A stretch of DNA of 64,000 nt, taken from Metallibacterium scheffleri (GTDB lineage: Bacteria > Pseudomonadota > Gammaproteobacteria > Xanthomonadales > Rhodanobacteraceae). The position numbers were made by a program, and so were the translations under genes. Under the pieces are notes generated by a model. That model searched no databases and was not told the DNA's origin. It worked only from the letters and a program-made list of their open reading frames with translations. Each line of letters opens with the position of its first letter. Position 1 is the first letter of the stretch. The DNA lies in the NCBI RefSeq assembly GCF_002077135.1, contig NZ_LDOS01000001.1, positions 570,219 through 634,218 on the forward strand, read 5' to 3'. Shown piece after piece: positions 2,293 through 30,003 of the stretch.

Positions 2293-3051
2293 TCAGGCGT
2301 TGTCGTCCTTGAGCAGCGCGCGCAGCGCGGCGGGCTGCTGCAAGTGCACCTCGCGGCCGATGATGTCGACCATGCCCTGTTCGCGAAAGCGCGCCAGTAC
2401 GCGGCTGACGGTTTCGGCGGCGAGGTGCAGGAAGTTGGCGATGTCGCTGCGCGGCATGGGCAGATGGAAATGCTCCGGCGACAAACCACGCAGTGCATAG
2501 CGCGCCGACAAATCGAGCAGGAACGCTGCCACGCGCTGATCGGCACCCATGTCCCAGCTGCGCGCCTCGTGCTGCGCAATGGCGTGGCTGAACATGCGGA
2601 ACAGGTGCTGCTGCACTTCCGGTTCACGTTGCGCCACGTGGCTGACCGCATCGAACGGCAGCTTGCACAGGCGTGTGCTTTCCAGCGCGACGCCATCGCA
2701 GGGATACACGCCGGGGTCGACCGCCTCCAGTCCCACGACCTCGCCGGGCAGATAAAAGCCCAGCACCTGGGCGCGGCCCTCGGCGTCGACTTGCACGGTC
2801 TTGACCATGCCGGACTTCACCGCGAACAGCGTGCGGAACGGCTCGCCGGATTTGAATACGTGGTCATTGCTGCGAAACGGTCCGATGTCCTCGACCAGCT
2901 TGTGCATGTCGGCGAAGGCCACGCTGCCGTTGCCGGACATGCCGCAAGCGTGTACCAATCCGCAGCGATCACAGGAGACCCTTGCATCGCGTGGCTCGGC
3001 GCAGGCCATGCCGGGTACGTCCAGCGCGCAGAGTTTCGGCTTGGCGGTCAT
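2293..3051 (-). CDS. fnr: FNR/ANR-family oxygen-sensing transcriptional regulator
   Basis: A 252-residue Crp-Fnr regulator. C27-x2-C30-x5-C36 and C129 match the four cysteines that hold the oxygen-labile [4Fe-4S] cluster of FNR. A cyclic-nucleotide-like beta-roll follows, then the dimer helix and a C-terminal HTH in which ETVSR supplies the Glu, Ser and Arg that read TTGAT. ATG 3051 is chosen because the reading frame upstream of it is not FNR-like. It is probably the regulator of the four TTGAY-N4-ATCAR boxes nearby (before hemN, the Cyc2-like gene, petA and tyrDC/tyrA), which are inferred targets. Confidence 0.93.
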   Translation of the reverse strand: MTAKPKLCALDVPGMACAEPRDARVSCDRCGLVHACGMSGNGSVAFADMHKLVEDIGPFRSNDHVFKSGEPFRTLFAVKSGMVKTVQVDAEGRAQVLGFYLPGEVVGLEAVDPGVYPCDGVALESTRLCKLPFDAVSHVAQREPEVQQHLFRMFSHAIAQHEARSWDMGADQRVAAFLLDLSARYALRGLSPEHFHLPMPRSDIANFLHLAAETVSRVLARFREQGMVDIIGREVHLQQPAALRALLKDDNA

Positions 3052-3125
3052 CACAGCCTCCGTCGCGACTGCAGCACTCGAGCGCGCGATTCTAGCGCCC
3101 ACTGGCATGCAAACGCGAGACTGCG

Positions 3126-4526
3126 TCAGATGGCGCGCGAGTAGCGCGCGTTCTGCGCGGTGCCGAGGTAGGCATCGAAGCGCATCGCCACCTGGCGCGT
3201 CAGCAGGCGGCCGCGCGCGCTGATGCGCAGGCGCGCGCCCTGCCACTGCACCAGACCATCGGCCTCGAACTCATGCAACGCGTCCAGCGCGTCGGCGAAG
3301 TAGCGCCGGAAGTCGATGCCGTGGCGCGCGCCAAAGGCGTCGATGTCGATCTCGCCCTGGCACATCAGCGCGTTGATCAGCTCGCGCCGCAGGCGGTCGT
3401 CCGCGCTCAGCACCAGCCCGCGCGCCACCGGCAGGCGCCCGGCCTCCAGCGCCGCGTAATAGCCCGGGAGGTCCTTGGCGTTCTGGTAATAGGCATTGCC
3501 CACGCGGCTGATCGAGCTCATGCCCAGACCGATGATGTCGCACTCGGCGTGCGTCGAGTAACCCTGGAAATTGCGCTGCAGCGTGCCCGCGCGCTGCGCC
3601 CGTGCCAGCTCGTCCAGCGGCCGCGCGAAGTGGTCCATGCCGATGTACACATAGCCGGCCGCGGTGAGCCGGTCCACGGTCAGGCCCAGCAGCGCCAGCT
3701 TGCTCGCGGCATCAGGCAACTGGCTGGCGTCGATCCGGCGCTGCGCCTTGAACAGCTGCGGCAGGTGCGCGTAGCTGTAGGCGGCGATGCGGTCCGGCGC
3801 CAGCGCGATGACCTGCTCCAGCGTGTGCGCGAAACGCGCCGGCGTCTGCAGCGGCAGGCCGTAGATCAGGTCCACGCTGGTCGAGCGGAAGCCGGCCGCA
3901 CGCGCGGCCTGCAGCAACGCGGCGGTGTCCTGCACGCTCTGCACGCGGTTGACCGCGGCCTGCACCGCCGGGTCGAAGTCCTGGATGCCCACCGAGAGCC
4001 GGTTGAAACCCAGTGCCGCCAGTGCGCGCACGTAATCCGGGTCGGCGCTGCGCGGGTCCAGCTCGATGCCGAACTCGCGGCTGGCGGCCTGGCTGAGGTT
4101 GAAGTGCCGGCCCAGGACCTGCAGCAGGTCCTGCATCTGCCGCGCATCAAGGAAATTGGGCGTGCCGCCGCCGAAGTGCAGTTGCACCACGCTGCGGTCG
4201 CGGTCGAACAAGGGCGCGGTACGCTCGATCTCGGCATACAGGTGCTGCAGGTACTGCTCGCCCTTGGCGTGATCGCGCGTGATCAGGCGCGTGCAGCCGC
4301 AGTAGAAGCACGGGCTCAGGCAGAACGGCACGTGCACGTATACCGACAGATCGCGCGGGATCGGGTCGTCGTTGCTGGCGTGCGCCTCGGCGCGCAGCGC
4401 GGCCTCACCGAAACCGGCGTGGAACTGCGGCGCGGTCGGGTAGCTGGTGTAGCGCGGTCCGGCCACGTCGTAGCGCCGGATCAGCTCGGCGTCGAAGCGC
4501 GGTGCCTGGGGTGCTTGCGAAGTCAT
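3126..4526 (-). CDS. hemN: oxygen-independent coproporphyrinogen III dehydrogenase HemN
   Basis: A 466-residue radical-SAM enzyme. GPRYTSYPTA near the N terminus and CLSPCFYCGC (C-x3-C-x2-C-x-C) are hallmarks of HemN; the first three cysteines bind the SAM-cleaving cluster. FGGGTPNF and the C-terminal HemN domain are present. It makes protoporphyrinogen IX without O2, allowing haem synthesis under anoxia for the cytochromes encoded nearby. ATG 4526 gives the family-typical start; an FNR box is centred 41 bases upstream of it. It lies between fnr and the hemerythrin gene on the same strand. Confidence 0.95.
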   Translation of the reverse strand: MTSQAPQAPRFDAELIRRYDVAGPRYTSYPTAPQFHAGFGEAALRAEAHASNDDPIPRDLSVYVHVPFCLSPCFYCGCTRLITRDHAKGEQYLQHLYAEIERTAPLFDRDRSVVQLHFGGGTPNFLDARQMQDLLQVLGRHFNLSQAASREFGIELDPRSADPDYVRALAALGFNRLSVGIQDFDPAVQAAVNRVQSVQDTAALLQAARAAGFRSTSVDLIYGLPLQTPARFAHTLEQVIALAPDRIAAYSYAHLPQLFKAQRRIDASQLPDAASKLALLGLTVDRLTAAGYVYIGMDHFARPLDELARAQRAGTLQRNFQGYSTHAECDIIGLGMSSISRVGNAYYQNAKDLPGYYAALEAGRLPVARGLVLSADDRLRRELINALMCQGEIDIDAFGARHGIDFRRYFADALDALHEFEADGLVQWQGARLRISARGRLLTRQVAMRFDAYLGTAQNARYSRAI

Positions 4527-8606: not shown

Positions 8607-8620
8607 TTGATCTGAATCAA
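8607..8620 (+). promoter_or_regulatory. perfect FNR/ANR box of the bc1 operon
   Basis: TTGATCTGAATCAA is an exact match to TTGAT-N4-ATCAA. Placing its centre at -41.5 puts the transcript start near 8655 with a TATTTT-like -10 at 8644-8649, the class II FNR activation geometry. The first gene starts at 8691. Confidence 0.85.
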
Positions 8621-8690: not shown

Positions 8691-9377
8691 ATGGCGAATA
8701 GCCCGATTCAAAAAGCGCCCGCTGGCGAGCTGATCATGGATTCGATTCGTCCCGAGAGCGAGGTACGACCCGACCGCAGACAGTTTCTCATCGCCGCTGC
8801 CGGTGTCCTGGGCGCGGGTGCAGTCGGTCTGTTTGCGGACATTCTGATCGACAACATGAATCCCGGGAAAGCTGTTGAGGCTCTGGGCGCACCGATCGAC
8901 GTCGACATAAGCCGGATGGAACCCGGGCAGTTGCTTCTCGTGGAATGGAAGAAGAAACCAGTATGGATCTTGAAACGTGAAGGCTGGATGCTGAACACCC
9001 TGGCCGAACCGTCACTGCTGCGGCGACTCAAGGATCCACACAGCAAACAGAACCAGCAGCCCGCGCAAGAATATGTGAATGGCAACTATCGGGCCCTGCG
9101 ACCGGACATGTTCATAGCCGTGGCATTGTGCACGCACATGCAATGCATTCCGGACTATCGGCCCGCGCCGCATACGGTGACGCCGTGGTGGCCGGGTGGA
9201 TTTCATTGTGCCTGCCACGGATCCATGTACGACTTTTCCGCGCGCGTGCTCGAGGGTTCGCCAGCACCATTGAACATTCCGATTCCACCGTATTACTGGA
9301 AAACCGCCACGATGGTCACCATAGGCGAGGCGAACAAATCGGGCATCGACAAGAATTGGACTCCCGATATTTGGTAA
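8691..9377 (+). CDS. petA: ubiquinol-cytochrome c reductase Rieske iron-sulfur subunit
   Basis: A 228-residue protein. A twin-arginine segment (DRRQFL, RR at 29-30) precedes one hydrophobic helix, the uncleaved Tat anchor of bacterial Rieske proteins. The [2Fe-2S] ligands are in CTHMQC and CACHGSMYD. The canonical boxes are CTHLGC and CPCHGS, so the cluster loops differ at three positions, while the Ser and Tyr that raise the redox potential (GS, MYD) are kept. It delivers electrons from quinol at the Qo site to the c-type cytochromes. First gene of an FNR-box operon. Confidence 0.93.
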   Translation: MANSPIQKAPAGELIMDSIRPESEVRPDRRQFLIAAAGVLGAGAVGLFADILIDNMNPGKAVEALGAPIDVDISRMEPGQLLLVEWKKKPVWILKREGWMLNTLAEPSLLRRLKDPHSKQNQQPAQEYVNGNYRALRPDMFIAVALCTHMQCIPDYRPAPHTVTPWWPGGFHCACHGSMYDFSARVLEGSPAPLNIPIPPYYWKTATMVTIGEANKSGIDKNWTPDIW

Positions 9378-9392
9378 GCCGGTATTCTGCAG

Positions 9393-10253
9393 ATGGATGT
9401 CAAGATGAAAATTGCCGAACATATGCCCAAGCCAGCCACCGCGATTGCGTTGTTTTTGGTTGCGTTTTGCAGTGTGGCCGATGTGCATGCGAAAGCTGAT
9501 TATCACGGGATACCATTGGGAGCGGCGGCGGCCAAGCAAGGCAGCGCCTTGATCGCGGTGTGTGCAGCGTGTCATGGAATAACTGGGAACAGTGCCGCAG
9601 CCGAATATCCCAATCTGGCGGCACAGCGCTACAACTATCTGCTGAAGCAACTGGAAGATTTCCGGGACGGCGCGCGCAAATCGACGATCATGAGTGGCAT
9701 GGCGATGACCATACCTGCCTCGGCCAATAATCAAAACCTGAAAGAAATCGCCGCATATTTCTCGCGTCAACCATTACTGCCGGCGGAAGTGGCGGCAGGC
9801 CCCGGCATGCGCGCAGACGCCACCCAGTTGAAGGAAGGACAGAAAATCTATACGCAGGGACTGGCAAACGACAACATTCCTGCCTGTGCCGCATGCCACG
9901 GACTTGGCGCGGACGGCAATGGGCCGATGGCGATTCCCGCGCTGGCATTGCAACACCAGGTTTACCTGTTGACGCAGCTTGACCAATTCGCCAGCGGCGC
10001 GCGGCGCAATAGTCCTGGACAAGTCATGACCAGCATTGCCAGGGCCATGACAAAGCCGCAGATGCAGGCGGTTGCCGCCTATCTACAGCAGTTGAATCCT
10101 GATTCGACTCTCGGCATCGGACCAAAGAATTACGGCGAATACACCAAGACCGTCGAACTGCACCAGCAAGCAGAAAAATCCGCTCTCGTGGCCGCGCCGC
10201 ATGGTGTTGCCAAGCCGAAAGCAGAGACCGTCCAATCCAAGCCAATACGCTGA
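9393..10253 (+). CDS. dihaem cytochrome c4-like protein
   Basis: A 286-residue periplasmic protein with a signal peptide (residues 1-33, cleavage near VHA) and two haem motifs, CAACHGITG (C57-H61) and CAACHGLGADGNG. Each lies in a similar half-domain with a YLLKQLEDF/YLLTQLDQF repeat and a downstream Met, as in cytochrome c4. It probably carries electrons from the bc1 complex to a terminal oxidase or reductase. Lying inside the bc1 operon between the Rieske and cytochrome b genes is unusual. ATG 9405 is a possible alternative start. Confidence 0.88.
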   Translation: MDVKMKIAEHMPKPATAIALFLVAFCSVADVHAKADYHGIPLGAAAAKQGSALIAVCAACHGITGNSAAAEYPNLAAQRYNYLLKQLEDFRDGARKSTIMSGMAMTIPASANNQNLKEIAAYFSRQPLLPAEVAAGPGMRADATQLKEGQKIYTQGLANDNIPACAACHGLGADGNGPMAIPALALQHQVYLLTQLDQFASGARRNSPGQVMTSIARAMTKPQMQAVAAYLQQLNPDSTLGIGPKNYGEYTKTVELHQQAEKSALVAAPHGVAKPKAETVQSKPIR

Positions 10254-10307
10254 ACGAAACAACGCATGACCCACGTGGCGTTCGCGCCGTGAAGGATTTC
10301 GCACTCC

Positions 10308-11741
10308 ATGAATAACATTGACCAATCAAGAGCAAAGCGAGTGTTTGGCTGGTTCGACCAGAGACTGCCCATTTCGTCGCTCTGGCGCACGCAGGTCGCC
10401 GAGTATCCGGCACCGAAAAATTTCAATCTGTGGTACATCTTCGGTTCGCTGGCGCTGCTGGTTCTGGTCATGCAGCTTGCGACTGGCTTATTTCTGGCCA
10501 TTCATTACCAACCCAACCCGCATCTGGCGTTCTGGTCGGTGGCGCGCACGATCCAGAGAGATTCGCATTGGGGCTGGCTGATCCGTGACATGCACATCGT
10601 CGGTGCTTCGGCGTTTTTCGTGCTCGTCTATCTGCACATGTACCGCGGCATCATGTACGGCTCATACAAAAAGCCCCGCGAATTGTTGTGGCTGATCGGT
10701 ATCTTTATCTACCTGGCATTGGCCGCAGAGGCATTTCTTGGCTACCTGTTGCCATGGGGGCAAATGTCGTACTGGGGCTCGGCCGTCGTCACCAATTTCG
10801 TGACTGCGATACCGGGCATTGGCAAGCCGATCGCGCAGTGGTTGCGCGGCTCGTTCGTGATCGGACTGCCGACTTTGAACCGGTTCTTCGTGTTCCACGT
10901 GTTTCTGATGCCGGTCCTGTTGCTGGCGCTGGTGCTGGTCCATCTCATCGCGCTGCACCAGGTCGGCTCGAACAATCCGGATGGAGTCGAGATTCACGAC
11001 AATACCAACGAATCATCATGGCCGCGTGACGGAATCCCGTTTCACCCGTATTACACCGTGAAAGATCTGTTCGGTGTCAGCGTGTTTTTCGTCGTGTTTT
11101 TCTGGTTCGTATTCTATCGACCGGATGGCTGGGGTTTTCTGCTGGACAAGTTGAACTATACACCTGCAAATATCCTGCATACGCCCAGCGACATTCACCC
11201 GCTGTGGTTCTTTCTACCATTTTACGCAATGCTGCGCGGTGTACCCAACAAGCTGTATGGGATCATGGCATTTGCCGGCTCATTTGCATTGCTGGCGTGC
11301 CTGCCGCTGCTCGACCGTAATCCGATTCGCTCGATTCGCTATCGCTCGGTACTGTACAAATTAAACATCCTGATGATGCCGGCATCATTTTTGTGGCTGG
11401 GTTATGTCGCCCACGGCTTCGCCACCGAGCACAACATGGTGTACGGGCTTCATGTCACCGAGGTCTTTTACGCCACGTTCCTGGTGCTGCCATTTTTCAA
11501 CAAGCGGCGCGCGATCGGTGCCACGGTGGCCTGGCTGGTCGCCACGGAGGCCGTGGTTTTTCTGATCGACCTCTGGATGTACTCCATCCATGCGCATGGA
11601 TGGGCCCTGATGCTGCTGACGGACTGGATTCCGGCGGCTTACCTGTTGCTGTTGTTCGGACTGGCGATTCTGTTCCCGGCACTGACCCGTGACACCCAGC
11701 ACCTGCCTGAGCGACTTACTGCGGGTGGGATTTTCCATTGA
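10308..11741 (+). CDS. petB: cytochrome b of the bc1 complex, divergent Qo motif
   Basis: A 477-residue protein with about eight membrane helices. Two His pairs for haems bL and bH are visible (IRDMHIVGASAFFVLVYLH and FHVFLMPVLLLALVLVH). The Qo-site motif, PEWY in nearly all bc1 complexes, reads PLWF (residues 298-301, bases 11199-11210), removing the Glu that takes part in quinol oxidation. The surrounding FLPFYAMLR context is otherwise normal, so this is not a misalignment. It is longer than typical cytochrome b because of an extra C-terminal membrane region. Confidence 0.93.
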   Translation: MNNIDQSRAKRVFGWFDQRLPISSLWRTQVAEYPAPKNFNLWYIFGSLALLVLVMQLATGLFLAIHYQPNPHLAFWSVARTIQRDSHWGWLIRDMHIVGASAFFVLVYLHMYRGIMYGSYKKPRELLWLIGIFIYLALAAEAFLGYLLPWGQMSYWGSAVVTNFVTAIPGIGKPIAQWLRGSFVIGLPTLNRFFVFHVFLMPVLLLALVLVHLIALHQVGSNNPDGVEIHDNTNESSWPRDGIPFHPYYTVKDLFGVSVFFVVFFWFVFYRPDGWGFLLDKLNYTPANILHTPSDIHPLWFFLPFYAMLRGVPNKLYGIMAFAGSFALLACLPLLDRNPIRSIRYRSVLYKLNILMMPASFLWLGYVAHGFATEHNMVYGLHVTEVFYATFLVLPFFNKRRAIGATVAWLVATEAVVFLIDLWMYSIHAHGWALMLLTDWIPAAYLLLLFGLAILFPALTRDTQHLPERLTAGGIFH

Positions 11742-11829
11742 CGACAAGTCTGCGTCCACGTGATATCGGGCGATGTTCGTCCGATCGGTCCGCAGAAGAC
11801 AACCGAACTCTTTTTGGGCAGGACGAGCA

Positions 11830-12642
11830 ATGACAACACGCACTCCAGCATGGAAATCCGGTTTGCTTGTGGTGCTTCTATCCACTCTGCTGCTGGCGGT
11901 GTCCGGCAGCGCGGCGCTGGCATCGGTAACGACCACGCAACCACCGTTGCGGCATATCAAGATCAATCTGCATGACAAAGCGGCATTGCAGACGGGTGCC
12001 CTGTATACATTGCACATGTGCACCGCGTGTCACGGGATCCAGGGCGAGCGCTACAGCGAACTGCCGCCGGTCCTTGGTTTGAGCAAATCGCAGTTCCTGA
12101 AATACATCGGCACCGACGGGCGCCACTACCACGACACCATCACCACGAGCATGTCGCCCGAGTTGATGACGAAATTCCTGAACATGGAGCCGCCGGATCT
12201 GACCGATATCGCGCTGCGCCGCTCGCCCGCCTGGCTATACACGTATCTGACTTCATTTTATGTCGATCCGGCGCGGCCGACCGGCGTCAACAACGTCGTG
12301 TTCTACAATGTTGCCATGCCTGATGTTTTCGCCGGCATGCAGGGACTGCAAAAGCCGGTCTTGGTGACGGGCTTGCGCTTTGGCAGCCCGGCCAGGATCG
12401 CGGTCGGTGTGCAGCCCTTGACGCAAGGTACGATGTCGCAGGCGCAGTTTGATCAGACCGCGCGGGACATTGTCACGTTTCTGTACGCAGTCGCACATCC
12501 GCATCAGGCCGAGCGGGCCCGGCTTGGGCCATGGATCATCGGTCTGTTTCTCGGGCTTTCGTTGCTGACTTATTTCATCTACAAATTGTACTGGCGGCGG
12601 GTGATTACCAGCCATGAGCGCTGGTGGAGGATCGGGCGATGA
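11830..12642 (+). CDS. petC: cytochrome c1 of the bc1 complex
   Basis: A 270-residue protein with a signal peptide (LLVVLLSTLLLAV, cleavage near ALA), one haem motif CTACHG, a candidate Met ligand in NVAMPDVF, and a C-terminal membrane anchor (IIGLFLGLSLLTYFIY) followed by KLYWRRV. This is the cytochrome c1 layout, though the sequence is divergent. ATG 11830 is chosen because it opens the signal peptide; an upstream in-frame ATG at 11773 adds an unrelated basic stretch. Its stop overlaps the next gene (ATGA). Confidence 0.88.
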   Translation: MTTRTPAWKSGLLVVLLSTLLLAVSGSAALASVTTTQPPLRHIKINLHDKAALQTGALYTLHMCTACHGIQGERYSELPPVLGLSKSQFLKYIGTDGRHYHDTITTSMSPELMTKFLNMEPPDLTDIALRRSPAWLYTYLTSFYVDPARPTGVNNVVFYNVAMPDVFAGMQGLQKPVLVTGLRFGSPARIAVGVQPLTQGTMSQAQFDQTARDIVTFLYAVAHPHQAERARLGPWIIGLFLGLSLLTYFIYKLYWRRVITSHERWWRIGR

Positions 12643-12998
12643 GTACCACGATCGCCGCCGCGCCAAGCGTCATGGTGGGATCAGGTGACCGGCAACTGCG
12701 GGGTTCGCGCAATGCCTACATTGCACTTGCCTTGGGTCTGGTTTTTTTCATCTTCACCATCTGGTATCAGGTGTATGCCGATACGCGCAAGCCGGCAGAA
12801 TCCTGTGCGGATCCATTTCTGCAGAGTCATCGCCAATGGCGCCTGCGCACCGCGTTCTTGTTCATGATGTGGTCCATTCTCGCCGGCTTCTGCATGCCGT
12901 TCGGATTTGCCCTGCTGGTATTCGTACCCGTCTATTCGTGGTTTGTCTATCGGTTGCTCAAGGGCCTGATTTTTTTCAGTCTGCGGAAAGTGATATGA
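12639..12998 (+). CDS. small membrane protein of the bc1 operon, function unknown
   Basis: A 119-residue protein with about three membrane helices (YIALALGLVFFIFTIWY, TAFLFMMWSILAGFCM, ALLVFVPVYSWFVY). I do not recognise the family. ATGA overlap with petC and a 31-base gap to the CM-UbiT gene place it firmly inside the operon. It could be a supernumerary bc1 subunit or an assembly factor, a guess from position only. Two cysteines (ESCADPF, AGFCMPF) have no haem context. Confidence 0.75.
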   Translation: MSTTIAAAPSVMVGSGDRQLRGSRNAYIALALGLVFFIFTIWYQVYADTRKPAESCADPFLQSHRQWRLRTAFLFMMWSILAGFCMPFGFALLVFVPVYSWFVYRLLKGLIFFSLRKVI

Positions 12999-13029: not shown

Positions 13030-13974
13030 ATGCATACCGTCGAGCTGCCGCCAACCCGTATCGAGCCGCCTGCGCAGACTTCCGGCCGCGCTGGCGCTGC
13101 ACGCGCGCGACCCGTGGCAGCCACCGGATCGGCTGAACTGCACGCGATGCGCTGCCTGATCGACCGGGTCGACGAGATGTTCCTGGTTCTGCTGGCGGGT
13201 CGGCGCCAGTTGGTGCGGCGTGCCATGGCGCTCAAGCAGCGTGCCGGCCTGCCCGCACGCAACCCTGAACGCGAGCGTCAGGTGCATGACCGGGCACAGG
13301 CCTTTGGCGCGAAGCTCGCGCTGCCCAATGGCGTGACGCGGCAATTGATGGAGCTGCTCATCGGCGATGCCTGCGCATTGCAGGGTTTGTCGTCATCCGG
13401 GGAACCAACCATGGGTTGTTCTTCATCGCTGCATGAATCGGGGAGTCCGCCGGTGCCGGGATCCCCCCGGGCGGGAAAATTTCTGCGGCTGTTGCCGCCT
13501 CCTGTGCGCTTGAGCACACCGTTGCGCTGGACGTTGCCAGCGCCGCTGCTGCGCGTCTTGCTGCGCAGCATGACCTTGCGTGTCATGGCGGGGCCTCTTG
13601 CCGCGGGCAGGCTGGATGATTTGCAGGGTCGCAGGCTCGGGGTCGAAGTCACCGACCTCAAGTTGCGCTGGGTGGTCGTGATCGGTACGCGCGATTTGCA
13701 TGTGCAGGTTCCCGGCGCGGAGGCGGAGTCGACCGTGCGCGGCAGTGCCACCGATCTTCTGCTTCTGGCCAGCCGTCTCGAGGACGCCGATACGCTGTTT
13801 TTCCAGCGCCGTCTGCAACTAGTCGGCGACACCGAGCTGGGGTTGCTGGTGCGCAATCTGCTTGATCAACTTCCGTGGGAGACGATTCCACTGGATGTCC
13901 GGGTGTTGCTGAATCGAGGCGCCCGGTTCGCGCGCCTGGCGCGCGCGGCCCATCAAGGCGAAATGATCGCCTGA
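13030..13974 (+). CDS. ubiT: AroQ chorismate mutase fused to UbiT (SCP2-like)
   Basis: A 314-residue two-domain protein. Residues 36-118 align without gaps to the E. coli AroQ chorismate mutase domain. R41, R58, K69, R81, E82 and Q118 sit where E. coli R11, R28, K39, R51, E52 and Q88 do; only D48 is changed (to Asn). Residues about 150-290 are an SCP2-type lipid-binding domain like UbiT (YhbT), the accessory factor of O2-independent ubiquinone synthesis. It lies 31 bases after the bc1 operon genes and converges on ubiV with a 22-base overlap. A fused mutase would supply prephenate; see findings. Known UbiT proteins have no such domain as far as I know. Confidence 0.85.
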   Translation: MHTVELPPTRIEPPAQTSGRAGAARARPVAATGSAELHAMRCLIDRVDEMFLVLLAGRRQLVRRAMALKQRAGLPARNPERERQVHDRAQAFGAKLALPNGVTRQLMELLIGDACALQGLSSSGEPTMGCSSSLHESGSPPVPGSPRAGKFLRLLPPPVRLSTPLRWTLPAPLLRVLLRSMTLRVMAGPLAAGRLDDLQGRRLGVEVTDLKLRWVVVIGTRDLHVQVPGAEAESTVRGSATDLLLLASRLEDADTLFFQRRLQLVGDTELGLLVRNLLDQLPWETIPLDVRVLLNRGARFARLARAAHQGEMIA

Positions 13975-14855
13975 GCGAGCTCTGGCGCATCATCGCCGGG
14001 CATGCGTTGCATGCCGGCGCGTCCGTGCCAATAGCCATTTTCCTTGCCGATCCGCTGCGCCGGCAGACCGGAATCGATGGCCTCGCGAAAGCGCGCGACC
14101 ACGGCCGCCATGTCATTCACCTGCGGGTAAAGGCGCAGCAAGCGGATGCCCGCTGCCTGCAGTTCGGCGATGTCGGGCGCCAGATCGCAGTGCTCGTTGC
14201 TCTGGATCTGGATGCCATTGATGGTCAGGAAGGGGCGGCCCTCGCGCGTCTGCAATGGCAGGCCATCCGGATAGTCGATGCAGCGGAAACCGCAGTCGTC
14301 CTTGGCCAGATCCAGCGCCCGCGCCGTATAGCAGCGCGCCGAATAGGCCAGCGGCAGACGCCCCCAGGCGATCGCCTCGAACTCCGGCAGCGGTTCGCCG
14401 CTGTTCTTGAATTCCTGCATCAATTCTCGCCCCAGCTCGATTCCAAGCACCAGCCGCTGCATCCCGTCCGCGCGCAGCAGGCGCAAGGCGACATGGTTGT
14501 AGATATTCAAACCCGGGCCGCCAATGAACGGCAATTTGCGTTCGCGCAAAAGCTGTACCGCGGCGATGTCATTGGCCTCGACGCGCAGGCGTCCGTTGTC
14601 GACCAGACGCGTCAGCGCCGACAAATCCGACTCGGCTTCCAGCAGCGCCAGCGAGGACAGAACGATCTCGCGTCCGCTTTCGGCGAGTTCGTTCGCCAAC
14701 GCGATCCAGTCACGCGTGCCGAGTTCGCGACGCTTGCTGCAGACGGTCTCGCCGAGGTAGATCGTGTCCAGCGGCCATTGCACCGCCGCGCGATAAAATT
14801 TGAACACGTCATCGCGGCGCCAGAAATATTGCAGGGGTCCGAGGGTGAGTTGCAT
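13953..14855 (-). CDS. ubiV: UbiV, U32-family subunit of O2-independent ubiquinone hydroxylase
   Basis: A 300-residue U32-peptidase-like protein. C39 (ETVCSKRREL), C175, C188 and C192 (spacing C-x12-C-x3-C) match the four [4Fe-4S] cysteines of E. coli UbiV. UbiV works as a heterodimer with UbiU to hydroxylate the ubiquinone ring without O2. ATG 14855 lies 11 bases after the ubiU stop, so the genes are co-transcribed. It is the last gene of tyrDC-ubiD-ubiU-ubiV. Confidence 0.93.
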   Translation of the reverse strand: MQLTLGPLQYFWRRDDVFKFYRAAVQWPLDTIYLGETVCSKRRELGTRDWIALANELAESGREIVLSSLALLEAESDLSALTRLVDNGRLRVEANDIAAVQLLRERKLPFIGGPGLNIYNHVALRLLRADGMQRLVLGIELGRELMQEFKNSGEPLPEFEAIAWGRLPLAYSARCYTARALDLAKDDCGFRCIDYPDGLPLQTREGRPFLTINGIQIQSNEHCDLAPDIAELQAAGIRLLRLYPQVNDMAAVVARFREAIDSGLPAQRIGKENGYWHGRAGMQRMPGDDAPELAQAIISP

Positions 14856-14866
14856 GTGCGCGTGCC

Positions 14867-15862
14867 TCAATGCCAGGAACGGTGATAAGGGCCCAGCGTG
14901 GTCTGTTGGCCTTCGGCATGCGCGTCGAGTTCGCGTTGCCATGCCGGATCGCCGGCGGCACCAGGCTGTGCTTCGAGCCGGTCGAGCGCCTGTCGCCAGA
15001 CCCGTGTCACGGCGCCCACGTAGGCCAGTCCGCGCTGCCGCCCTTCGATCTTGAGTGCCGCGACTCCCGCGGCCTTGAGCATCGGCAACAGCGGCAGCGT
15101 ATTCAGGCTGGTGGGTTCTTCCAGGGCATGGAAGATCTCGCCACCGACTGCGTAGCGGCCCTTGCATACCGTCGGGTAGCCGGCGGGTTCGTGCGCCTGG
15201 TAGCGATCGATCAGGACGTTGTTCAAATGCACGCTGCGCACGCCGCCGGGCTCCTCGTCCCAGCGCACGAATTTGGCTGGTGAACAGACGCCATGGCGGT
15301 TGGGCGAAACGCCGGTCACGTAACTGGACAGCTGGCAGCGTCCCTCCACCATGATGCACAGGCTGCCGAAGGCGAATACCTCGATGGCCACGACCTGGCG
15401 TTCGCAGAGCCGCTCGATCTGCTGCAGCGACAGCACCCTGGGCATGACGGCGCGCGCGATGCCGAAGCGTTCGCGGTAATAGCGCAGGGCGGCGTGGGTG
15501 GTCGCGGAAGCCTGCACCGAAAGGTGGCGCGGCAGATCGGGGTGGCGCCGCGTCGCATAGTCGAGTACGCCGAGGTCGGCGCAGATGATGGCGTCGACAT
15601 CGAGATCGGCTGCGCGATCCACGGCGCTTTGCCAGGCACTGATATGCGCCGGACCCGGGTAGGTGTTCAGCGCAACGTAGACCTTGCGCGCGCGCGCATG
15701 GGCATAGTCGATGCCCTGACGCAGGTCGTCGTCGCTGAAGTTGAGGCCCGCGAACGCGCGCGCGTTGGTCTGGTCGCGGAAGCCGACATAGACCGCGCTG
15801 GCGCCGTGATCAACCGCGGTTTTGAGCGCGGGCAGGTTGCCCGCCGGACAGATCAGATCCAT
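14867..15862 (-). CDS. ubiU: UbiU, U32-family subunit of O2-independent ubiquinone hydroxylase
   Basis: A 331-residue protein starting MDLICPAGNLPALKTAV, the typical UbiU opening. C169, C176, C193 and C233 (C-x6-C-x16-C, then TVCKGRY) are the [4Fe-4S] ligands at E. coli-like positions. It forms the O2-independent hydroxylase with UbiV and UbiT. The related enzyme TrhP uses prephenate as hydroxyl source, which makes the adjacent chorismate mutase-UbiT fusion notable. ATG 15862 has the family start; there are 118 bases between it and ubiD. Confidence 0.94.
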   Translation of the reverse strand: MDLICPAGNLPALKTAVDHGASAVYVGFRDQTNARAFAGLNFSDDDLRQGIDYAHARARKVYVALNTYPGPAHISAWQSAVDRAADLDVDAIICADLGVLDYATRRHPDLPRHLSVQASATTHAALRYYRERFGIARAVMPRVLSLQQIERLCERQVVAIEVFAFGSLCIMVEGRCQLSSYVTGVSPNRHGVCSPAKFVRWDEEPGGVRSVHLNNVLIDRYQAHEPAGYPTVCKGRYAVGGEIFHALEEPTSLNTLPLLPMLKAAGVAALKIEGRQRGLAYVGAVTRVWRQALDRLEAQPGAAGDPAWQRELDAHAEGQQTTLGPYHRSWH

Positions 15863-15980: not shown

Positions 15981-17471
15981 TCATGGCTGCTGCGCCGCGG
16001 GGACGCTGGCGAACACGCTTGACCACAAGGCATCGACCCGCCGCTCGATGTCGGGGTCGGCGGTGATCGGGCGTCCCCAGGCGCGGTCGGTTTCGCCGGC
16101 CCATTTGCTGGTGGCATCCAGTCCCAGTTTGGAACCGAGGCCAGCCACCGGGCTGGCGAAATCCAGGTAATCGATGGGGGTGCGCTCGATGAGCACGCTG
16201 TCGCGCGCGGGATCGACCCGTGTCGACAGCGCCCAGATCACTTCGCTCCACTGCCGCGCGTCGATATCCGCGTCGACCACGATCACGAACTTCGTGTAGG
16301 TGAACTGGCGCAGGTATGACCAGATGCCCATCATCACGCGGCGAGCATGGCCCGGATACTGCTTGCGGATGCTGACGATGGCGATCCGGTAGGAACAGGC
16401 TTCCGGGGGCAGGTAAAAATCCACGATCTCGGGAAATACCTTCTGCAGGATCGGCACGAAGACCTCGTTCAATGCCAGCGCCAGGACCGAGGGTTCGTCA
16501 TGCGGCGCACGCCCCATGTAGCTGCCGTGATAGATCGCGCCGCTGCGCAGCAGCATGCGCTGCACGGTAAACACGGGGAACCGGGCCTGGCTGTTGTAGT
16601 AGCCCGTGTGGTCGCCAAACGGCCCTTCCATGGCGGTGTCGCCGGGATGGATGACACCTTCGAGCACGATCTCCGCGCCAGCCGGCGCATCCAGACCGGT
16701 GCGCGCGCTGTGCCAGACGCGGGTGCGGTCGCCACGCAGCAGGCCGGCGAACTCGTATTCGGACAAGGTGTCGGGGACGGGCGCCACGGCCGCCAGCAGC
16801 GTGGCCGGGTCGGCGCCGATGGCGACCAGGACCGGGAACGGCCGGTCCGGACAAGCCGCCTGCCAGTCGGCGAAATCCAGCGCGCCACCGCGATGCGGCA
16901 GCCAGCGCATGATCACCCGGTTGCGGGCGATCACCTGTTGCCGGTAGATCGCCACGTTCTGGCGTTTCTGTCGCGTGCCGCGGGTGACCACCAGGCCGAA
17001 GGTGATCAACGGCCCGACGTCATCGGGCCAGCAGCGCTGGATGGGCAACCGGGCCAGATCGACATCGGCGGCCTCGACGACTTGATCGAGAAACGCAGCC
17101 TCGTGCACGACCTTGGGGGTGACATTCGCCAGCTGGCCGAATTCAGGCCACATCTGCAGTGCTTCACGCACGGATCCCGGCCAGCGCGGCTCCTTGATGG
17201 AGGCCAGCAACTGGCCCAGTTCGCGCAGCGAGGCCAGGGGCCTGCCGGCCAGCGCGGCCTCGATCCGCTCACGATGCCCGAACAGGTTGCCGAGCATGGG
17301 GTGGACTGAACCCCGCGCATGCTCGAACAATAGCGCCGGCCCGCCGGCGCGCAGCGCGCGCAGGCAGAACGCCGTGCTCTCCAGTTGCGGATCGATCGGC
17401 TGCGCGACCCTGCGCAGGGAATGGCGCGCCTGCAGATGGGCGAGAAACGCGCGCAGATCGTGAAAAGCCAT
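15981..17471 (-). CDS. ubiD: UbiD-family prenylated-FMN decarboxylase
   Basis: A 496-residue protein, the same length as E. coli UbiD. ATG 17471 gives the usual [10 protein letters not shown] opening. The prFMN/Mn-binding core is seen in [20 protein letters not shown] and the [13 protein letters not shown] motif with its catalytic acid. UbiD decarboxylates 3-octaprenyl-4-hydroxybenzoate in ubiquinone synthesis and needs prFMN from UbiX, which is not in the window. It follows tyrDC by 16 bases. Confidence 0.92.
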
Positions 17472-17487: not shown

Positions 17488-19425
17488 TCAGGCCGCGCGC
17501 GGCGATGGCGTCGCCGGCAGCAGCAAGGCCATGCGCCGTGACAGATAGTCGAAGTAACGGTCGATATAGCTGATGCCGTTCTCGTCATCGATGATGAAAG
17601 GATTCATCAAGGTGTGGCGCAGGATCAGCAAGCGATCCGCGCGCGGGTCATCCGCGCGCATGGAGTTCGCATCCAGCCCCAGCTCATGCAGAACCCGGTG
17701 CATGTCTTGCGCGCCGAGTATTTCCGCGCGCAGCGTGGTGGTCGAACCGAAGAATTCGCGGTTCTGCACAGCGGCCCCGGTGTCCGTGCTGATCGCGCCG
17801 TGGATGCGGCGGGTGAAGGCATTGGCGACGGCCACGTCGCGGTTGCCCGCCGGGTTGAGGGCCATGCACACCAAATTGCTGTCGGGGGCATAGGGAACGC
17901 ACACGCGCAGACGTGATTCCATTTCGCGGGCGAATTGTTCCGCGCGTGCTGCGAAGGCCTCGGTCGCGCGAATGGTTTGCCGCACCAGTTGCCCGAAGTG
18001 GGCGTGATCCAGCGGCAGCACCCGGTGCGTCACATACACGGCCGCCGCCGCCGCGCCGGACTTGGAACCTTCCGGGATGTACTGGCCCAGCTTGCGATAG
18101 CGCTCGAAATATCCGGATGGCGCCGCGCCCGTGAACACGTAATCGGCGGTTTCGGTGAGCAGCTCCATGGCACGGTGGTCCCGGCATACGAATGCGCCGG
18201 CGCCGTAGGCCAGATAACCGAGCTTGTGCGGGTCCACCGTGATCGAGTCGGCCTGGCCGAGCGCGGCCGTCGCCGCGTGCGTGTCCGCGCTGGGAAACGA
18301 GGTGAACTCCGCGCGCATGCTTTGCAGACTGCGCAGCGCGCCGTCTTCCTGGCGGAACAGGGTGGCCAGGTAGCCGCCCCAGGCGGCATCGACATGGATG
18401 GCGAAACCCTTGCCCTGTGCGGCGCGGCGCTCGCGCAGGGCCACCAGCTCATGGACCGGATCGATGGTGCCGAACTCGGTCGTGCCGAAGACCGCGACCG
18501 CCAGCAACGGAGAAGCGCCGGTGGCATCAAGGTCGCGCAGCGCCTGTGCGCACGCGGTGATATCCAGGCGCATGCCGCGCTCCGGGATCAGCCGCAACTG
18601 CTCGCGCCCCAGGCCGAGCATTTTCATGCCCTTGCTCCAGGAATAATGCGCCGTCACGGGGGCCAGCACGACGGGCGGCAGCAGCGCAGGGTGCATGGCG
18701 AAGAAACGCACGCTGCCGAGCTGCTCGATGCGTGCGGCTTCGAGTGTCCTGCGCCAGCGGGCGCGCTCCGCGGGTTCCAGTGCGGCCAGCCAGCCTTGCC
18801 AGTCGGTGAGCAGGGCAATGCTTTGCGTCGGCGTCAGCCTGAACGCCTGCACATCGTCGTCCGGGATATGCATCCCCGGCGGTGCCGCGGCGCGCAGTGC
18901 CACGGGAAAGCACTTCAATGCCAACGCAAGGCGCAAGGCCTGGAAATTGGCCAGGGTGCCGCCGGACGTCAGATGGCCGAATGCGCAATGGTCCTGTTGC
19001 GGATCGCTGGCATAGCCGAGCAACTTGGCCAGTTGCAAGCCGACCTTGATCTCCAGATCGATGGTGACGGGCGCGGCCTCGTCGCTGACATTGTTGGGGT
19101 TGTAGGGCAGGGCCAGAATCTGCGCGACCAGCCCGGGCAGCAGCAGGTCCGAGACCATGTGCCCGAGGTAGCGCGGGCTGTGAAAGGGCACGGAGCGTTT
19201 CAACGCCGCGGACAGCGTGTGCAATTCACGTCGCAGGCGCGCCTCGAATTCCTGGAATGCGGGTTGCTGCGCGGCGCGCGTGGGGATGGCCGGCGGATCT
19301 TCGGGATAAAGATTGCGCCGCCAGAAAACATGGTCGCGCAGAAACTCCAGCACCAGCCGTTCCAGCAGCGCATCGTTCTCCCCGTAGGGCCCCAGGAAAC
19401 ACGGATACAGGCTGGGCTCGGTCAT
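17488..19425 (-). CDS. PLP-dependent group II decarboxylase, tyrosine-decarboxylase-like
   Basis: A 645-residue fold-type I PLP enzyme. VDPHKLGY gives the Schiff-base lysine (K401), HVDAAWGGY the conserved Asp, and HYSW, EGSKSGA and [11 protein letters not shown] match bacterial TyrDC such as that of Enterococcus faecalis (about 620 residues). Substrate is probably L-tyrosine or another aromatic amino acid but cannot be fixed from sequence. It heads the operon tyrDC-ubiD-ubiU-ubiV, so a link to quinone-precursor supply is tempting but unproven. ATG 19425 was chosen because the upstream extension is not conserved in type; an FNR box lies 159 bases upstream. Confidence 0.8.
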
Positions 19426-19577
19426 GGATGCTCGCAGGATCGGTTCATTGGCGGTTGCATGGCTGCACGTCGCGTGACAAGGCAACCCGCACGGCGCAAC
19501 CCGGCGCCAGGCCCGGATCAGACTCGTCGCGCCGCTGCAGTGACTCAGAAGCATCGCGCCGAAAGCTCAAGCCCGTC

Positions 19578-19591
19578 TTGATCTGGATCAG
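19578..19591. promoter_or_regulatory. FNR/ANR box between tyrDC and tyrA
   Basis: TTGATCTGGATCAG is the same 14-mer as at hemN. Its centre is 159 bases before the tyrDC ATG (minus strand) and 113 bases before the tyrA ATG (plus strand), so it could control either gene or both. Confidence 0.65.
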
Positions 19592-19697
19592 TTTTGGCAC
19601 AACACAGGGAAACAAGCGGTGCAGGCTCTACTATCGATTCCGGCGCGCCAGCGCGGCGCGACCATCGACCCCCACCACAGCCCTGCAGACATCGACC

Positions 19698-20831
19698 ATG
19701 CCATCCAGTCAGCCGCCGCTCGCGGCCCCGCGCGAGCTCATCGACGACATCGACAACCGGATCCTCGACTTGCTGCAGCAGCGCAATCGCGTGGTCGGCG
19801 ATGTCATCGCGACCAAGATCCGGCAGAGCCTGCCCATCTTCGACGCCGCGCGCGAAGCCGACAAAATCGTGCGCTTCCGCGCGCAGGCCGTCGAACGCGG
19901 GCTGGATGCGGAGTGGGCCGAGGATTTCCTGCGCATGATCATGGGCAGTTCGCGCGATCGCCAGTCACACGGGGACTTTCCGCGCGCGGGGTCGCAGCCG
20001 CGCGAAGTGCTGCTGGTCGGCGGCGCGGGCGGCATGGGCTCGCTGTACCGCCGCTTCCTCGAGCGCAGCGGGCACCGCGTGCGCGTGCTTGATCGCGACG
20101 ACTGGCCGCGCGTCGCGCAACTCGCGGCCGGCATTGATCTGGCCATCGTCGCGGTACCGATCGATGTCACCGCCGAGGTCATCTGCCGCCTGGCGCCACA
20201 CCTGCCTGCTGACGCTGTGCTGGCCGATTTCACCTCCAACAAGAACGGCCTGCTGGAACTGATGCGGCAGGTCCACCCGGGTCCGGTCCTCAGTCTGCAC
20301 CCGTTGCATGGCCCGGACGCGCCCAATCTGGCCAAACAACTGATGCTGGCTTGCCCGGGACGCGATCCGCAGCGCAGCCAGTGGCTGCTCGAGCAGTGCC
20401 GGCTATGGGGCATGCGCATCAAGATCGTCGAGGCCGATCAGCATGATCGCGCGATGCACCTGATCCAGGGCCTGCGCCACTTCACGACGTTCCTGCACGG
20501 ATCGTTTCTGCGCCAATGCAACCTGCATCCGGAGGACATCCTCGACTACTCCAGCCCGGTCTACCGGATGGAACTGATGATGACGGCGCGCATGTTCGCG
20601 CAGGATCCGCAGTTATATGCCGACATCGTGCTGGCCAACGCCGAACGGCGCAGCCTGCTGCTCGAATTCCTCGAGCACCACCGCGCGCTGGCGCGCATCA
20701 TCGAGGACAACGACCGCGAGGCCTTCATCACCGAATTCCGCGACATCAGTGCGTTCTTCGCGGACTTCGCGGAACGCGCCCGCCGCGAGAGCGGATACCT
20801 GATCTACAGGCTGTCCGAGCGATTTGCCTGA
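19698..20831 (+). CDS. tyrA: bifunctional chorismate mutase/prephenate dehydrogenase TyrA (T-protein)
   Basis: A 377-residue protein that aligns end to end with E. coli TyrA (373). Residues 12-85 are an AroQ domain (RELIDDIDNRILDLLQQRN, READKIV). Then come the NAD-binding VGGAGGMG, the dehydrogenase active-site LHPLHGPD, and HDRAMHLIQGLRHF. It turns chorismate into prephenate and then into 4-hydroxyphenylpyruvate, the tyrosine precursor. It is divergent from tyrDC across a shared region with an FNR box. It is the second AroQ domain in 7 kb. Confidence 0.93.
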   Translation: MPSSQPPLAAPRELIDDIDNRILDLLQQRNRVVGDVIATKIRQSLPIFDAAREADKIVRFRAQAVERGLDAEWAEDFLRMIMGSSRDRQSHGDFPRAGSQPREVLLVGGAGGMGSLYRRFLERSGHRVRVLDRDDWPRVAQLAAGIDLAIVAVPIDVTAEVICRLAPHLPADAVLADFTSNKNGLLELMRQVHPGPVLSLHPLHGPDAPNLAKQLMLACPGRDPQRSQWLLEQCRLWGMRIKIVEADQHDRAMHLIQGLRHFTTFLHGSFLRQCNLHPEDILDYSSPVYRMELMMTARMFAQDPQLYADIVLANAERRSLLLEFLEHHRALARIIEDNDREAFITEFRDISAFFADFAERARRESGYLIYRLSERFA

Positions 20832-21616: not shown

Positions 21617-21992
21617 GCGTCACCCCGTCATGTACGTCATCCGGACATCACACGAGGATAGGTCGCGGCGCATGGCGTTGTTGCAACATTTCTTCAAGTT
21701 GTGCGCTGCTGCGCATATCGGGCTCAGGTGCGTGAATGCCGGTGACGGCGTGTGGACCGGGATCGCGCCTGCAGCTTTGCTCTTGCTGACAAATGCACTG
21801 GCAAGCGATGACGGTCCAAGATCTTCGGCGGTGCGTGGTGCTTTGGCGTTGATCGTTGCGCAGGCGCACGGCTTGTTGACGCCGATCCAAAACTGACCCA
21901 CTTTTCGGGCTGATGCCGACCGAAAATTGACCCGGGTACCCCAACCTTCCTGCTGGTTTTTTGACCAGCAGGAATCTGATGAGGTGTACCCC

Positions 21993-23504
21993 ATGTCGAT
22001 GATAGGAAAAGTGCGGCGGATGCATTTCCGCGAGAAGAAATCGGTGCGCGAGATCGCGCGCGTGACGAGCTTGTCCCGCAACACGGTGCGGGCGTGGTTG
22101 CGTGAGCCAGAGGTCAAGGATCGCCAATATCGGCGACCAGCGGCGTCGATGCAGCTGACGCCCTACGCGGATGCCCTTCGGCAAGCCTTGACGGCGGATG
22201 CGCGCCGTCCCAGGCGCGAGCAACGCACGGCGAAGGCCTTGTTCGAGGACGTGAGGGCCCAGGGCTACGAGGGCTGTTATTCGCGGGTGACCGACTTCGT
22301 GCGCGCCTGGCGTACCGATGGCGGCGAAGCGGCGGCGCGCAAGGCGTTCGTACCGCTGGCCTTCGAGTGGGGCGAAGCCTACCAGTTCGACTGGAGCGAG
22401 GAAGGCGTGGTGGTCGGCGGCGTGTACTACCGCGCCCAGGTGGCACACATGACGCTGTGCGCCAGTCGCGCGTTCTGGCTGGTGGCCTATCCCAGTCAGG
22501 GCCACGAGATGCTGTTCGACGCGCATACGCGCAGCTTCGCCGCCCTGGGCGGCGTGGCCCGCCGCGGCATCTACGACAACATGAAGACGGCGGTGGACAA
22601 GGTGCTGCGCGGCAAGGAGCGGGTGGTCAATGCGCGTTTCGCGGCCCTGTGCGCGCACTACCTGGTCGAGCCGGATTTCTGCAACGTCGCGTCCGGCTGG
22701 GAAAAGGGCGTGGTGGAGAAGAACGTGCAGGATGCGCGGCGGCGCATCTTCCAGCAGGCGGCCGGTGAGCGCTTCGCGACCTTCGCCGACCTCAACGCCT
22801 GGCTGGCGACGAAGGTCCGCGCGCTGTGGGAAGAGCTGCATCACCCGCAACACCGGGCGTGCACGCTGGCCGAGCTACTGGAGCACGAACGGGCCCATCT
22901 GATGCCGATGCCGGCACCGTTCGACGGTTACGTGGAGAAGGCCGCCAAGGTCAGCAGCACCTGCCTGGTCGCGGTGGCGAGGAACCGTTACTCGGTGCCG
23001 TGCGAATATGCCGGCCGCTGGGTGTCGGCGCGCGTGTACCCGACACGGCTGGTCATGGCCTCGGACGAGACGGTGATCGCCGAACACGAACGGCTGAACG
23101 GCAGCGGGCAAGTACGCTACGACTGGCAGCATTACGTGCCGCTGATCCAACGCAAGCCGGGCGCGCTGCGCAACGGCGAGCCCTTCGCCGACCTGCCCGC
23201 AGCCCTGCAGCAGTTGCGCCGAGCGTTGCTGCGCGAGGCGGGCGGCGATCGCGTCATGGCCAAGGTGCTTGCGCTGGTGCCGCAGGCGGGGCTGGAGGCG
23301 GTGACTGTAGCGGCGGAGCTGGCCCTGGAGTCCGGGCCGCCGGGACGGGTCAGTATCGAACATGTCGTCAACGTGCTGGGGCGCTTGAGCGCACCGGCCA
23401 CGCCGGCGGCTATCGCCACGTCCCTGCGTGCCGCCATTACTCCGGAAGCGGACACGGCGCGATACGACCGCCTGCGCGAGACGGAGGTGGCCCATGCGTC
23501 CTGA
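21993..23504 (+). CDS. istA: IS21 transposase IstA
   Basis: A 503-residue DDE transposase. An N-terminal HTH ([22 protein letters not shown]) is followed by the integrase core: Asp in YQFDWSEEG, Asp in IYDNMKTAV, Glu in [12 protein letters not shown]. The C-terminal domain ([14 protein letters not shown]) is typical. ATG 21993 is used because the upstream frame runs through the IS end. It overlaps istB by 11 bases. Confidence 0.94.
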
Positions 23505-24312
23505 CCTGTTGCGCGACCTGAAGGACTTGCGCCTGTACGGCATGGTGGGCGCATGGAGCGAACTGCTGGAGCAGAACCATCCGCTGGATAGTGGCCGCTG
23601 GTTGATCGAACACCTCGTCCAGGCCGAACAGACCGATCGTCACGGACGATCCATCCGCAACCAGCTGACCTCCGCGCGCTTCCCGCTGCATCGGGACTTG
23701 CTCAGCTTCCAGTATGAAGACACGCCCATCGACCGCGTCCTGGTCGAAAAACTGGCGGGCGCCGGCTTCACCGAGGCCGCGCACAACGTGGTCCTGGTGG
23801 GTGGTCCCGGTACGGGCAAGACGCATCTGGCCATCGCCATCGGCCATGCCGCCGTCACTCGCCACGGCAAGCGCGTGCGCTTCTTCTCGACGGTGGACCT
23901 GGTCAATGCCCTGGAGCAGGAGAAAGCCCAGGGCAAAGCCGGCCGCATCGCCGCCAGCTTGATGCGCATGGACTTGGTCATCCTCGACGAGCTGGGCTAT
24001 CTGCCCTTCAGCCCCAGCGGTGGCTCCTTGTTGTTCCACCTGCTGAGCAAGCTCTACGAGCGCACCAGCGTCATCGTCACGACCAACCTGGACTTCGGCG
24101 AGTGGGCCAGCATCTTTGGCGATGCCAAGATGACCACGGCCTTGCTCGACCGGCTCACGCATCACTGCCACATCCTCGCCACCGGCAACGAATCGCATCG
24201 TTACCGGCACAGCAGCCAGGCCGCAGGCCAGCGCATCAAGGCGCGTGAATCGGCCAGGAAACAGGCTCAAACGGACTTGCCGATCGAAGCGGAGGCCATG
24301 TCGCCCAGCTAG
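23494..24312 (+). CDS. istB: IS21 helper ATPase IstB
   Basis: A 272-residue AAA+ ATPase with Walker A GGPGTGKT, Walker [12 protein letters not shown] and sensor TTNLDFGEW. IstB forms rings on target DNA and regulates IstA. The ATG at 23494 lies inside the 3' end of istA, the usual IS21 coupling. Confidence 0.94.
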
Positions 24313-24427
24313 TCACCAAGCCCGCCAAACAGTAGAGTTATCCACAGGCGGCCACCTTGCGTGGCCGTCTTCTTCCCGGGTCAGTTTTAAATCGGCACGG
24401 CGGGTCAGTTTTAAGTCGGCGGCAACA

Positions 24428-24990
24428 CACGATCCAGCGCCGCGGCGGCGTGGCAATGTGGATCTCGCCCAGCCAGCGCGTCTGCTGCGCCTGCAGCGCC
24501 TCGGGCCGGAACAAGTCGTCCGACGGCACCCGTCCTGCGGCTTTGGCTGCTGCACCCATTCCATACCCCTGCGCATGCTGCTGTGCGCGCCTCTTGAACA
24601 GCGGGTGCGAAGTCCGTGTCTATCTTCCGCGGATACGATTGCGTAAGCAGGTCGACTGTTGGTAAATATTCGGTGAGCACGTCGAGCAGTTACCGCCGCA
24701 AGATAGCGGCATAGTCGCGACGCAGCGGATACAGCCAGATGTCCTTGAAGGGCAGTGCCTGCTGGTGCGAGAGGCTTTTTTTTCCCGCGGCCGGTTGTCT
24801 TGCTGCGTGCGCTGCACGTTTTCCGCCATCCAGAATGCCCGAATCCCGCCACCCAGTATGCTCAGATACCACCACCCAAAATGCTGGTCCCCACCACCGG
24901 AAACGCCATCCGGCCGCGGCTGATGGGGCCATCAGCCACCCTTTGCGCTCCGGAATTGGCCACCCGCGCTGTCTGTCGCGAGAGTGGTAG
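24428..24990. other. gene-poor relic stretch between IS21 and mqsRA
   Basis: No gene can be supported here. The minus strand keeps a short protein-like piece (SHQQALPFKDIWLYPLRRDY, 24693-24764), probably the tail of a lost gene. At 24835-24970 there are tandem-like motifs (CACCCAGTATGCTC, CACCCAAAATGCTG, GAATTGGCCACCC) that look like the repeated end of a degraded insertion element. Confidence 0.35.
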
Positions 24991-24995
24991 TGATG

Positions 24996-25008
24996 ACCCT
25001 TATAGGGT
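24996..25008 (+). promoter_or_regulatory. predicted mqsRA operator
   Basis: ACCCT-TAT-AGGGT is a perfect 5-3-5 palindrome directly before mqsR. E. coli MqsA binds palindromes of the form AACCT-N3-AGGTT, so position, spacing and symmetry fit autoregulation by MqsA. Confidence 0.65.
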
Positions 25009-25011
25009 AGT

Positions 25012-26822: not shown

Positions 26823-26927
26823 GCTGTGGTCGGTCTTACCGCCACTGGCATTGCGTCACGTGGCAACGACGAGGGTCGAGTCGCTTGATCACTATGTGCT
26901 GCGTCTGAGTGACGTCGTCGGGCTCAG

Positions 26928-29927: not shown

Positions 29928-30002
29928 GACACCAAAGTCGGTACAGGGGGTTTCGACACCAAAGTCGGTGCATTCGGTACAAACTTTGGTGTTTCGACCA
30001 CA
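29928..30002 (+). repeat. Tn7-like transposon right-end repeats, element A
   Basis: Two direct 18-mers, GACACCAAAGTCGGTACA (29928-29945) and GACACCAAAGTCGGTGCA (29955-29972), precede an inverted unit GTACAAACTTTGGTGT (29977 on) and the tip TTTCGACCACA. Units of this kind are expected TnsB binding sites, and ACA is a normal terminal triplet. The same arrangement recurs at 63017-63091, together with about 150 bases of similar inner sequence. Confidence 0.75.
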
Positions 30003-30003
30003 A

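Follow-up and report, generated by a model that had tools for sequence, protein, structure and literature searches.

Metallibacterium scheffleri encodes a two-domain protein in which a chorismate mutase (CM) of the AroQ type is fused to UbiT, and the best explanation for this arrangement, which we consider probable, is that the fused CM supplies prephenate to the hydroxylations carried out by UbiU and UbiV (UbiUV). The evidence that we bring to this explanation is the architecture of the protein, its conservation and predicted fold, its gene context, the FNR boxes around it and the presence of UbiU in genomes with the full fusion. The gene lies within a 64,000-nucleotide stretch of the genome (the window) and forms one open reading frame (13030-13974, +) of 314 residues without an internal stop. 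The Pfam families CM_2 (residues 41-118, E 7e-13) and SCP2 (residues 190-279, E 2e-15) both match above their curated cut-offs, and the NCBIfam UbiT equivalog NF047962 matches residues 169-284 with 119 bits (cut-off 46.9). No ACT-type regulatory domain was found in CM-UbiT by Pfam search. The protein is divided as follows:

13135..13386 (+), AroQ CM domain, residues 36-119, assigned from Pfam CM_2, invariant residues and the match to 1ECM
13387..13494 (+), linker between the CM and UbiT domains, residues 120-155
13495..13971 (+), UbiT (SCP2) domain, residues 156-314, assigned from NF047962; the model resembles UbiJ-SCP2 (6H6P)

An earlier sequence-only reading had proposed these two domains and picked out six CM residues as catalytic. 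Both proposals are borne out by the domain matches, by the alignment of R41, R58, K69, R81, E82 and Q118 with E. coli CM R11, R28, K39, R51, E52 and Q88, and by conservation across the order. Residue D48 of E. coli CM is replaced by N78 in the window's fusion, and asparagine is also present in a few relatives. Chance or a sequencing artefact is excluded because 67 dereplicated relatives encode both domains in a single uninterrupted frame, and no stop or frameshift separates the CM and UbiT domains in any fusion.

An AlphaFold2 model of CM-UbiT, built from 41 homologues (mean pLDDT 80), predicts two domains with a disordered linker between them. In this model the CM part superposes on E. coli CM (1ECM) with an rmsd of 0.9 Å over 84 columns (target TM 0.88) and is predicted to adopt the three-helix 1ECM fold that defines AroQ CMs, while the UbiT part is predicted to resemble UbiJ-SCP2 (6H6P; target TM about 0.72). 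A non-AroQ helical domain had been named beforehand as an outcome that would overturn the assignment; the model instead matches the AroQ structure.

Inspection of the surrounding genes places the fusion between a bc1-type run and the genes for the anaerobic hydroxylase:

8607..8620, perfect FNR box TTGATCTGAATCAA, before the Rieske gene at the head of a co-directional run that ends in CM-ubiT
8691..12998 (+), bc1-type run: Rieske protein, diheme cytochrome c, cytochrome b, cytochrome c1-like protein, small membrane protein
13953..14855 (-), ubiV (NCBIfam quinone_UbiV, 346 bits, cut-off 275), tail to tail with the fusion, 22 bp overlap
14867..15862 (-), ubiU (NCBIfam quinone_UbiU, 522 bits, cut-off 440)
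15981..17471 (-), ubiD decarboxylase (PRK10922, 714 bits; TIGR00148, 466 bits), in one run with ubiU and ubiV
17488..19554 (-), pyridoxal-dependent decarboxylase, tyrosine decarboxylase-like (Pfam PF00282, PF21391), heading the ubiD-ubiU-ubiV run
19578..19591, FNR-like box (1 mismatch) between the decarboxylase-ubiDUV run and the divergent tyrA
19695..20831 (+), tyrA T-protein (chorismate mutase and prephenate dehydrogenase)

The bc1-type run sits upstream of CM-ubiT on the same strand, with gaps of at most 55 bp. Both the perfect FNR box ahead of this run and an FNR-like box between the decarboxylase-ubiDUV run and tyrA recur in a relative (L035), and the genome encodes two FNR-type regulators with CX2CX5C and central cysteines. 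A sigma-70 promoter scan near the fusion returned no match. One of the two FNR-type regulators is encoded at window 2293-3246 (-), some 5.4 kb away from the perfect box.

The sequence-only reading had tied the fusion to prephenate by way of the related enzyme TrhP, and this premise proves better founded than it supposed. According to PMC11574389, which cites Ferizhendi et al. 2024 (PNAS), prephenate is the hydroxyl donor in anaerobic ubiquinone synthesis itself; the possibility had been raised earlier (PMC10470549), and direct evidence that U32 enzymes use prephenate as a donor is still missing (PMC11574389). From the literature we take prephenate as donor and the roles of UbiT and UbiUV. Under the preferred explanation, the N-terminal AroQ domain would make prephenate from chorismate as an active, dimeric mutase, and the C-terminal SCP2 domain would act as the accessory factor UbiT, holding prenylated quinone precursors for UbiU-UbiV. 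At low oxygen, an FNR-type regulator would turn on CM-ubiT and ubiD-ubiU-ubiV together, and the fused CM would provide a prephenate source close to the hydroxylase that is free of the regulatory parts of PheA and TyrA. Since CM-UbiT has no ACT-type domain, it could run while phenylalanine shuts PheA. The mutase activity, the use of its product by UbiUV and any local delivery are the parts of this scheme that we infer.

We next consider how the fusion is distributed. The search for the two-domain architecture across genomes that the earlier reading had suggested recovered full-length fusions in 22 of 100 relatives, which span 12 genera and four families by a hand count from the tables. All 22 encode UbiU; nine further relatives have UbiU without the fusion. 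The proposed UbiU/UbiV link holds in the window, where ubiV and ubiU adjoin the fusion, and is conserved across the order. Hosts include Dyella, Rhodanobacter, Frateuria, Lysobacter, Thermomonas, Arenimonas, Stenotrophomonas and Xanthomonas species. In 399 genomes from the phylum and 369 from the class, no fusion was found outside this order, where matches cover UbiT alone. The fusion is old and widespread in the order (Lysobacteraceae/Rhodanobacteraceae), and in most relatives a convergent ubiV-ubiU(-ubiD) lies downstream of CM-ubiT.

Phylogenetic analyses are in keeping with a single origin. In the CM tree, the fused CMs form one group (87/87 support) apart from the PheA and TyrA CMs, and the fused CM has therefore been kept as its own lineage; this tree rules out the neighbouring tyrA as its origin. 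Unfused forms are nested among fused ones in the UbiT tree, which taken alone requires up to nine changes between the two states. The true number is lower because two of the 'unfused' cases (L118 and L121) are loci cut inside the gene, and the pattern is most simply read as a single gain with several later losses. No separate CM gene was found beside the unfused UbiT of the sister MAGs L061, L077, L086, L108 and L109.

The loci of relatives hold further genes of note. At L039:11355-12440 and L042:11462-12526 (-), a tyrA with a C-terminal CM lies directly upstream of ubiU, which places another prephenate enzyme at a ubiUV locus. Many relatives have, just upstream of CM-ubiT, a membrane protein of 411-416 aa without a Pfam match (for example L043:4331-5569, L060:4309-5541 and L173:1432-2682), and an identification of this protein as NnrS is unsupported by Pfam and NCBIfam. 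An apparent remnant that combines a Rieske N-terminus with a cytochrome b C-terminus is present ahead of ubiD at L034:10468-11169 (-), with an FNR box at 11160.

To assess selection on the CM part, we used the 67 fusions that remain after dereplication at 80% and share a median identity of 50%. None of the 67 deviates at seven CM positions: R41, R58, K69, R81 and E82, which are catalytic, and D45 and D48, which are structural. Q118 (E. coli Q88) is 98% conserved, and Q118 and R88 each vary once in the set. In comparisons of the window with its nearest relatives, the CM part has a dN/dS of 0.05-0.16 and UbiT one of 0.12-0.14, while the linker is near neutral in the window's clade (about 0.7-1.7). 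One genus, in which the CM has split off from UbiT, provides a contrast. A member that keeps ubiU and ubiV (G047) has a free CM (L173:2679-3011) with all catalytic residues, whereas in a congener that has lost ubiT, ubiU and ubiV (G026, L172) the leftover CM carries K39 replaced by R. Lys39 is essential for E. coli CM (PMC10520331), and the contrast, a single case, fits a link between the CM sequence and UbiUV.

These observations bear on the strongest alternative, in which the CM is an active general isozyme whose prephenate goes into phenylalanine and tyrosine when oxygen is low, and which came to be fused to UbiT by chance through the order of the genes, with no particular tie to hydroxylation. 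CM activity does belong to amino-acid synthesis, tyrA is present in the same neighbourhood, and Arenimonas and a relative have a tyrA with a C-terminal CM adjoining ubiU. We nonetheless regard this alternative as unlikely: PheA and TyrA CMs are already encoded by the genome, UbiU is kept in every full-fusion genome sampled, and, in a single case, the CM of a genome without ubiTUV has lost its catalytic lysine.

A second alternative gives the CM fold a role other than mutase: it would help UbiT to dimerise or to bind chorismate, or would catalyse a different conversion of chorismate, for instance a pyruvate lyase reaction leading to 4-hydroxybenzoate. Lyases do occur among AroQ relatives (PchB is one), and ubiC (PF04345) is absent from the genome. 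The genome does, however, encode a chorismatase of the FkbO/Hyg5 family, which we take to be XanB2-like and which could be the source of 4-hydroxybenzoate. The catalytic residues are moreover invariant, including E82 at the E52 position, where PchB has valine in place of glutamate (PMC12329711), and the PchB-type model PRK07075 gives an E-value of 0.075, whereas the top-scoring CM models reach 1e-8 to 1e-9. Given the chorismatase and the mutase-type residues, a chorismate lyase role was rejected despite the absence of ubiC, and a non-mutase role as a whole appears improbable.

Analysis of the linker revealed an additional layer of DNA-level conservation. FNR-like boxes with at most 1 mismatch number 111 in the relatives' loci, against about 2 in simple shuffles. 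A box with at most 2 mismatches lies within the linker in 36 of the 67 dereplicated fusions (for example L055, L053 and L084 near 6257), always in one codon register, and stretches of equal length from the CM and UbiT parts contain no FNR box with at most 1 mismatch. When these linkers are aligned on the box without gaps, the A and T of a -10 hexamer (NANNNT) are present in 36/36, compared to 0 to 18 matches when the test is moved by whole codons. The distance from the box centre to the first -10 base is 30.5 nt in all 36, and 35 have an ATG at column 50 or 53. In geometry alone, this is the arrangement expected of a class II FNR-dependent promoter, in which the box would lie about 41.5 bp before the transcription start with the -10 in register. 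At the -10, the encoded residue may be M, T, I, K or S, with only the base A in common, which argues for DNA-level selection there. One codon of the box likewise has T as its third base in 36/36, where GAT and GGT account for 42% and 23% elsewhere in the same genes.

Comparisons among loci suggest how this element arose. The same box and spacing occur just ahead of ubiT in two unfused relatives (L061 and L086), and three that have lost the CM keep the box (L028, L023 and L030). An FNR box just upstream of the CM start is seen in 6 of 29 fusions whose linker lacks a box and in none of the 36 whose linker has one (Fisher p 0.006, uncorrected for relatedness). The linker box is thus apparently an old ubiT FNR promoter that was trapped when the CM was joined and is still in use, and it would apparently give a nearly leaderless UbiT transcript besides the fusion, such that CM-UbiT and a free-standing UbiT may both be produced in many species. 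This constitutes a clear case of gene fusion across a promoter that is apparently still active.

The linker box is missing in 31 of the 67 fusions, the window's included, and several such linkers have no ATG; UbiT must therefore be made within the fusion in these cases. In the window's linker the best FNR match has 3 mismatches and is out of register, and we rejected it as a promoter. The window's clade has no linker box, and its UbiT must be made as the fusion, putatively controlled by the FNR box at 8607. A third alternative, read-through, has the functional UbiT arise from an internal FNR promoter and start, with the CM as a separate function that happens to be in the same frame. This would account for the 36 boxed linkers with their -10 bases and ATG codons and for the box kept after CM loss, but is highly improbable given the 31 box-less fusions, the linkers without ATG and the fact that no stop or frameshift ever separates the domains.

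Returning to prephenate supply by the fused CM, several observations limit how strong a dependence can be proposed. E. coli and most Pseudomonadota have no fusion, and within the same family UbiT is unfused in at least two genomes that carry ubiU/ubiV, G019 and G047; a strict need for the CM domain is therefore unlikely. In about half of the fusions a putative FNR promoter lies 3' of the CM part, in the linker, and part of the anaerobic UbiT would therefore be without CM. Other CM fusions have shown no kinetic channelling benefit (PMC10520331). The built-in donor supply put forward by the sequence-only reading is thus retained as far as the domains, the residues and the UbiUV link are concerned, and set aside as an obligate role in view of relatives with unfused UbiT and UbiUV and of the internal FNR promoters; it is likely an enhancement rather than an obligate step. 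A fuller version, in which CM-UbiT makes prephenate at UbiUV and hands it over while about half of the lineages also yield plain UbiT under anoxia, is possible and is offered tentatively.

A comparison with known systems highlights what is distinct about the fusion. UbiT (YhbT) of E. coli and other Pseudomonadota (PMC6747719) resembles it in belonging to the SCP2 family NF047962, adjoining ubiU/ubiV and being FNR-linked, but known UbiT proteins are about 180-200 aa (PMC11707229) and have no CM domain. The Zymomonas mobilis UbiT-UbiU fusion (PMC6747719) likewise ties UbiT to the hydroxylase, though its partner is a hydroxylase subunit rather than a donor-making enzyme. The E. coli P- and T-proteins PheA and TyrA share the AroQ CM joined to a partner domain, the catalytic residues and the 1ECM fold; their partners use prephenate for amino acids, whereas the partner in CM-UbiT is a lipid-binding quinone factor. 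Exported fusions of CM to cyclohexadienyl dehydratase similarly join CM to a protein of the prephenate route, but are AroQ-gamma proteins that serve phenylalanine synthesis and are very rare (PMC10520331). The pathway that the fusion would feed is UbiUVT with prephenate as donor, as cited to Ferizhendi et al. 2024 in PMC11574389. In E. coli, UbiUVT depends on separate enzymes for prephenate, unlike CM-UbiT.

To our knowledge, no CM-UbiT fusion features in the 2024 work of Ferizhendi et al. No paper in the literature searched names both UbiT and chorismate mutase; Ferizhendi et al. 2024 lay outside that search, and a prior mention is possible. Term searches of the ubiTUV surveys PMC11707229 and PMC13386864 found no mention of a fusion. 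The use of an organic molecule, prephenate, as an oxygen donor in anaerobic ubiquinone synthesis is a recent idea, and the conserved fusion of an enzyme predicted to make prephenate to the pathway's lipid carrier provides strong, independent, evolution-based support for this unusual chemistry. CM-UbiT also represents a single protein in which a point mutation can separate donor supply from hydroxylation.

Elsewhere in the window, mobile elements occupy about 21900-31000 and 49800-58000 (Mu/rve transposase, two TniQ genes, AAA ATPase, DDE transposase) and a type I restriction R gene lies at 36243-39683. The same two 14-base matches, 95 bases apart, occur at 26050-26158 and 46661-46769, with about 20.6 kb between the copies, and probably represent a repeated element.
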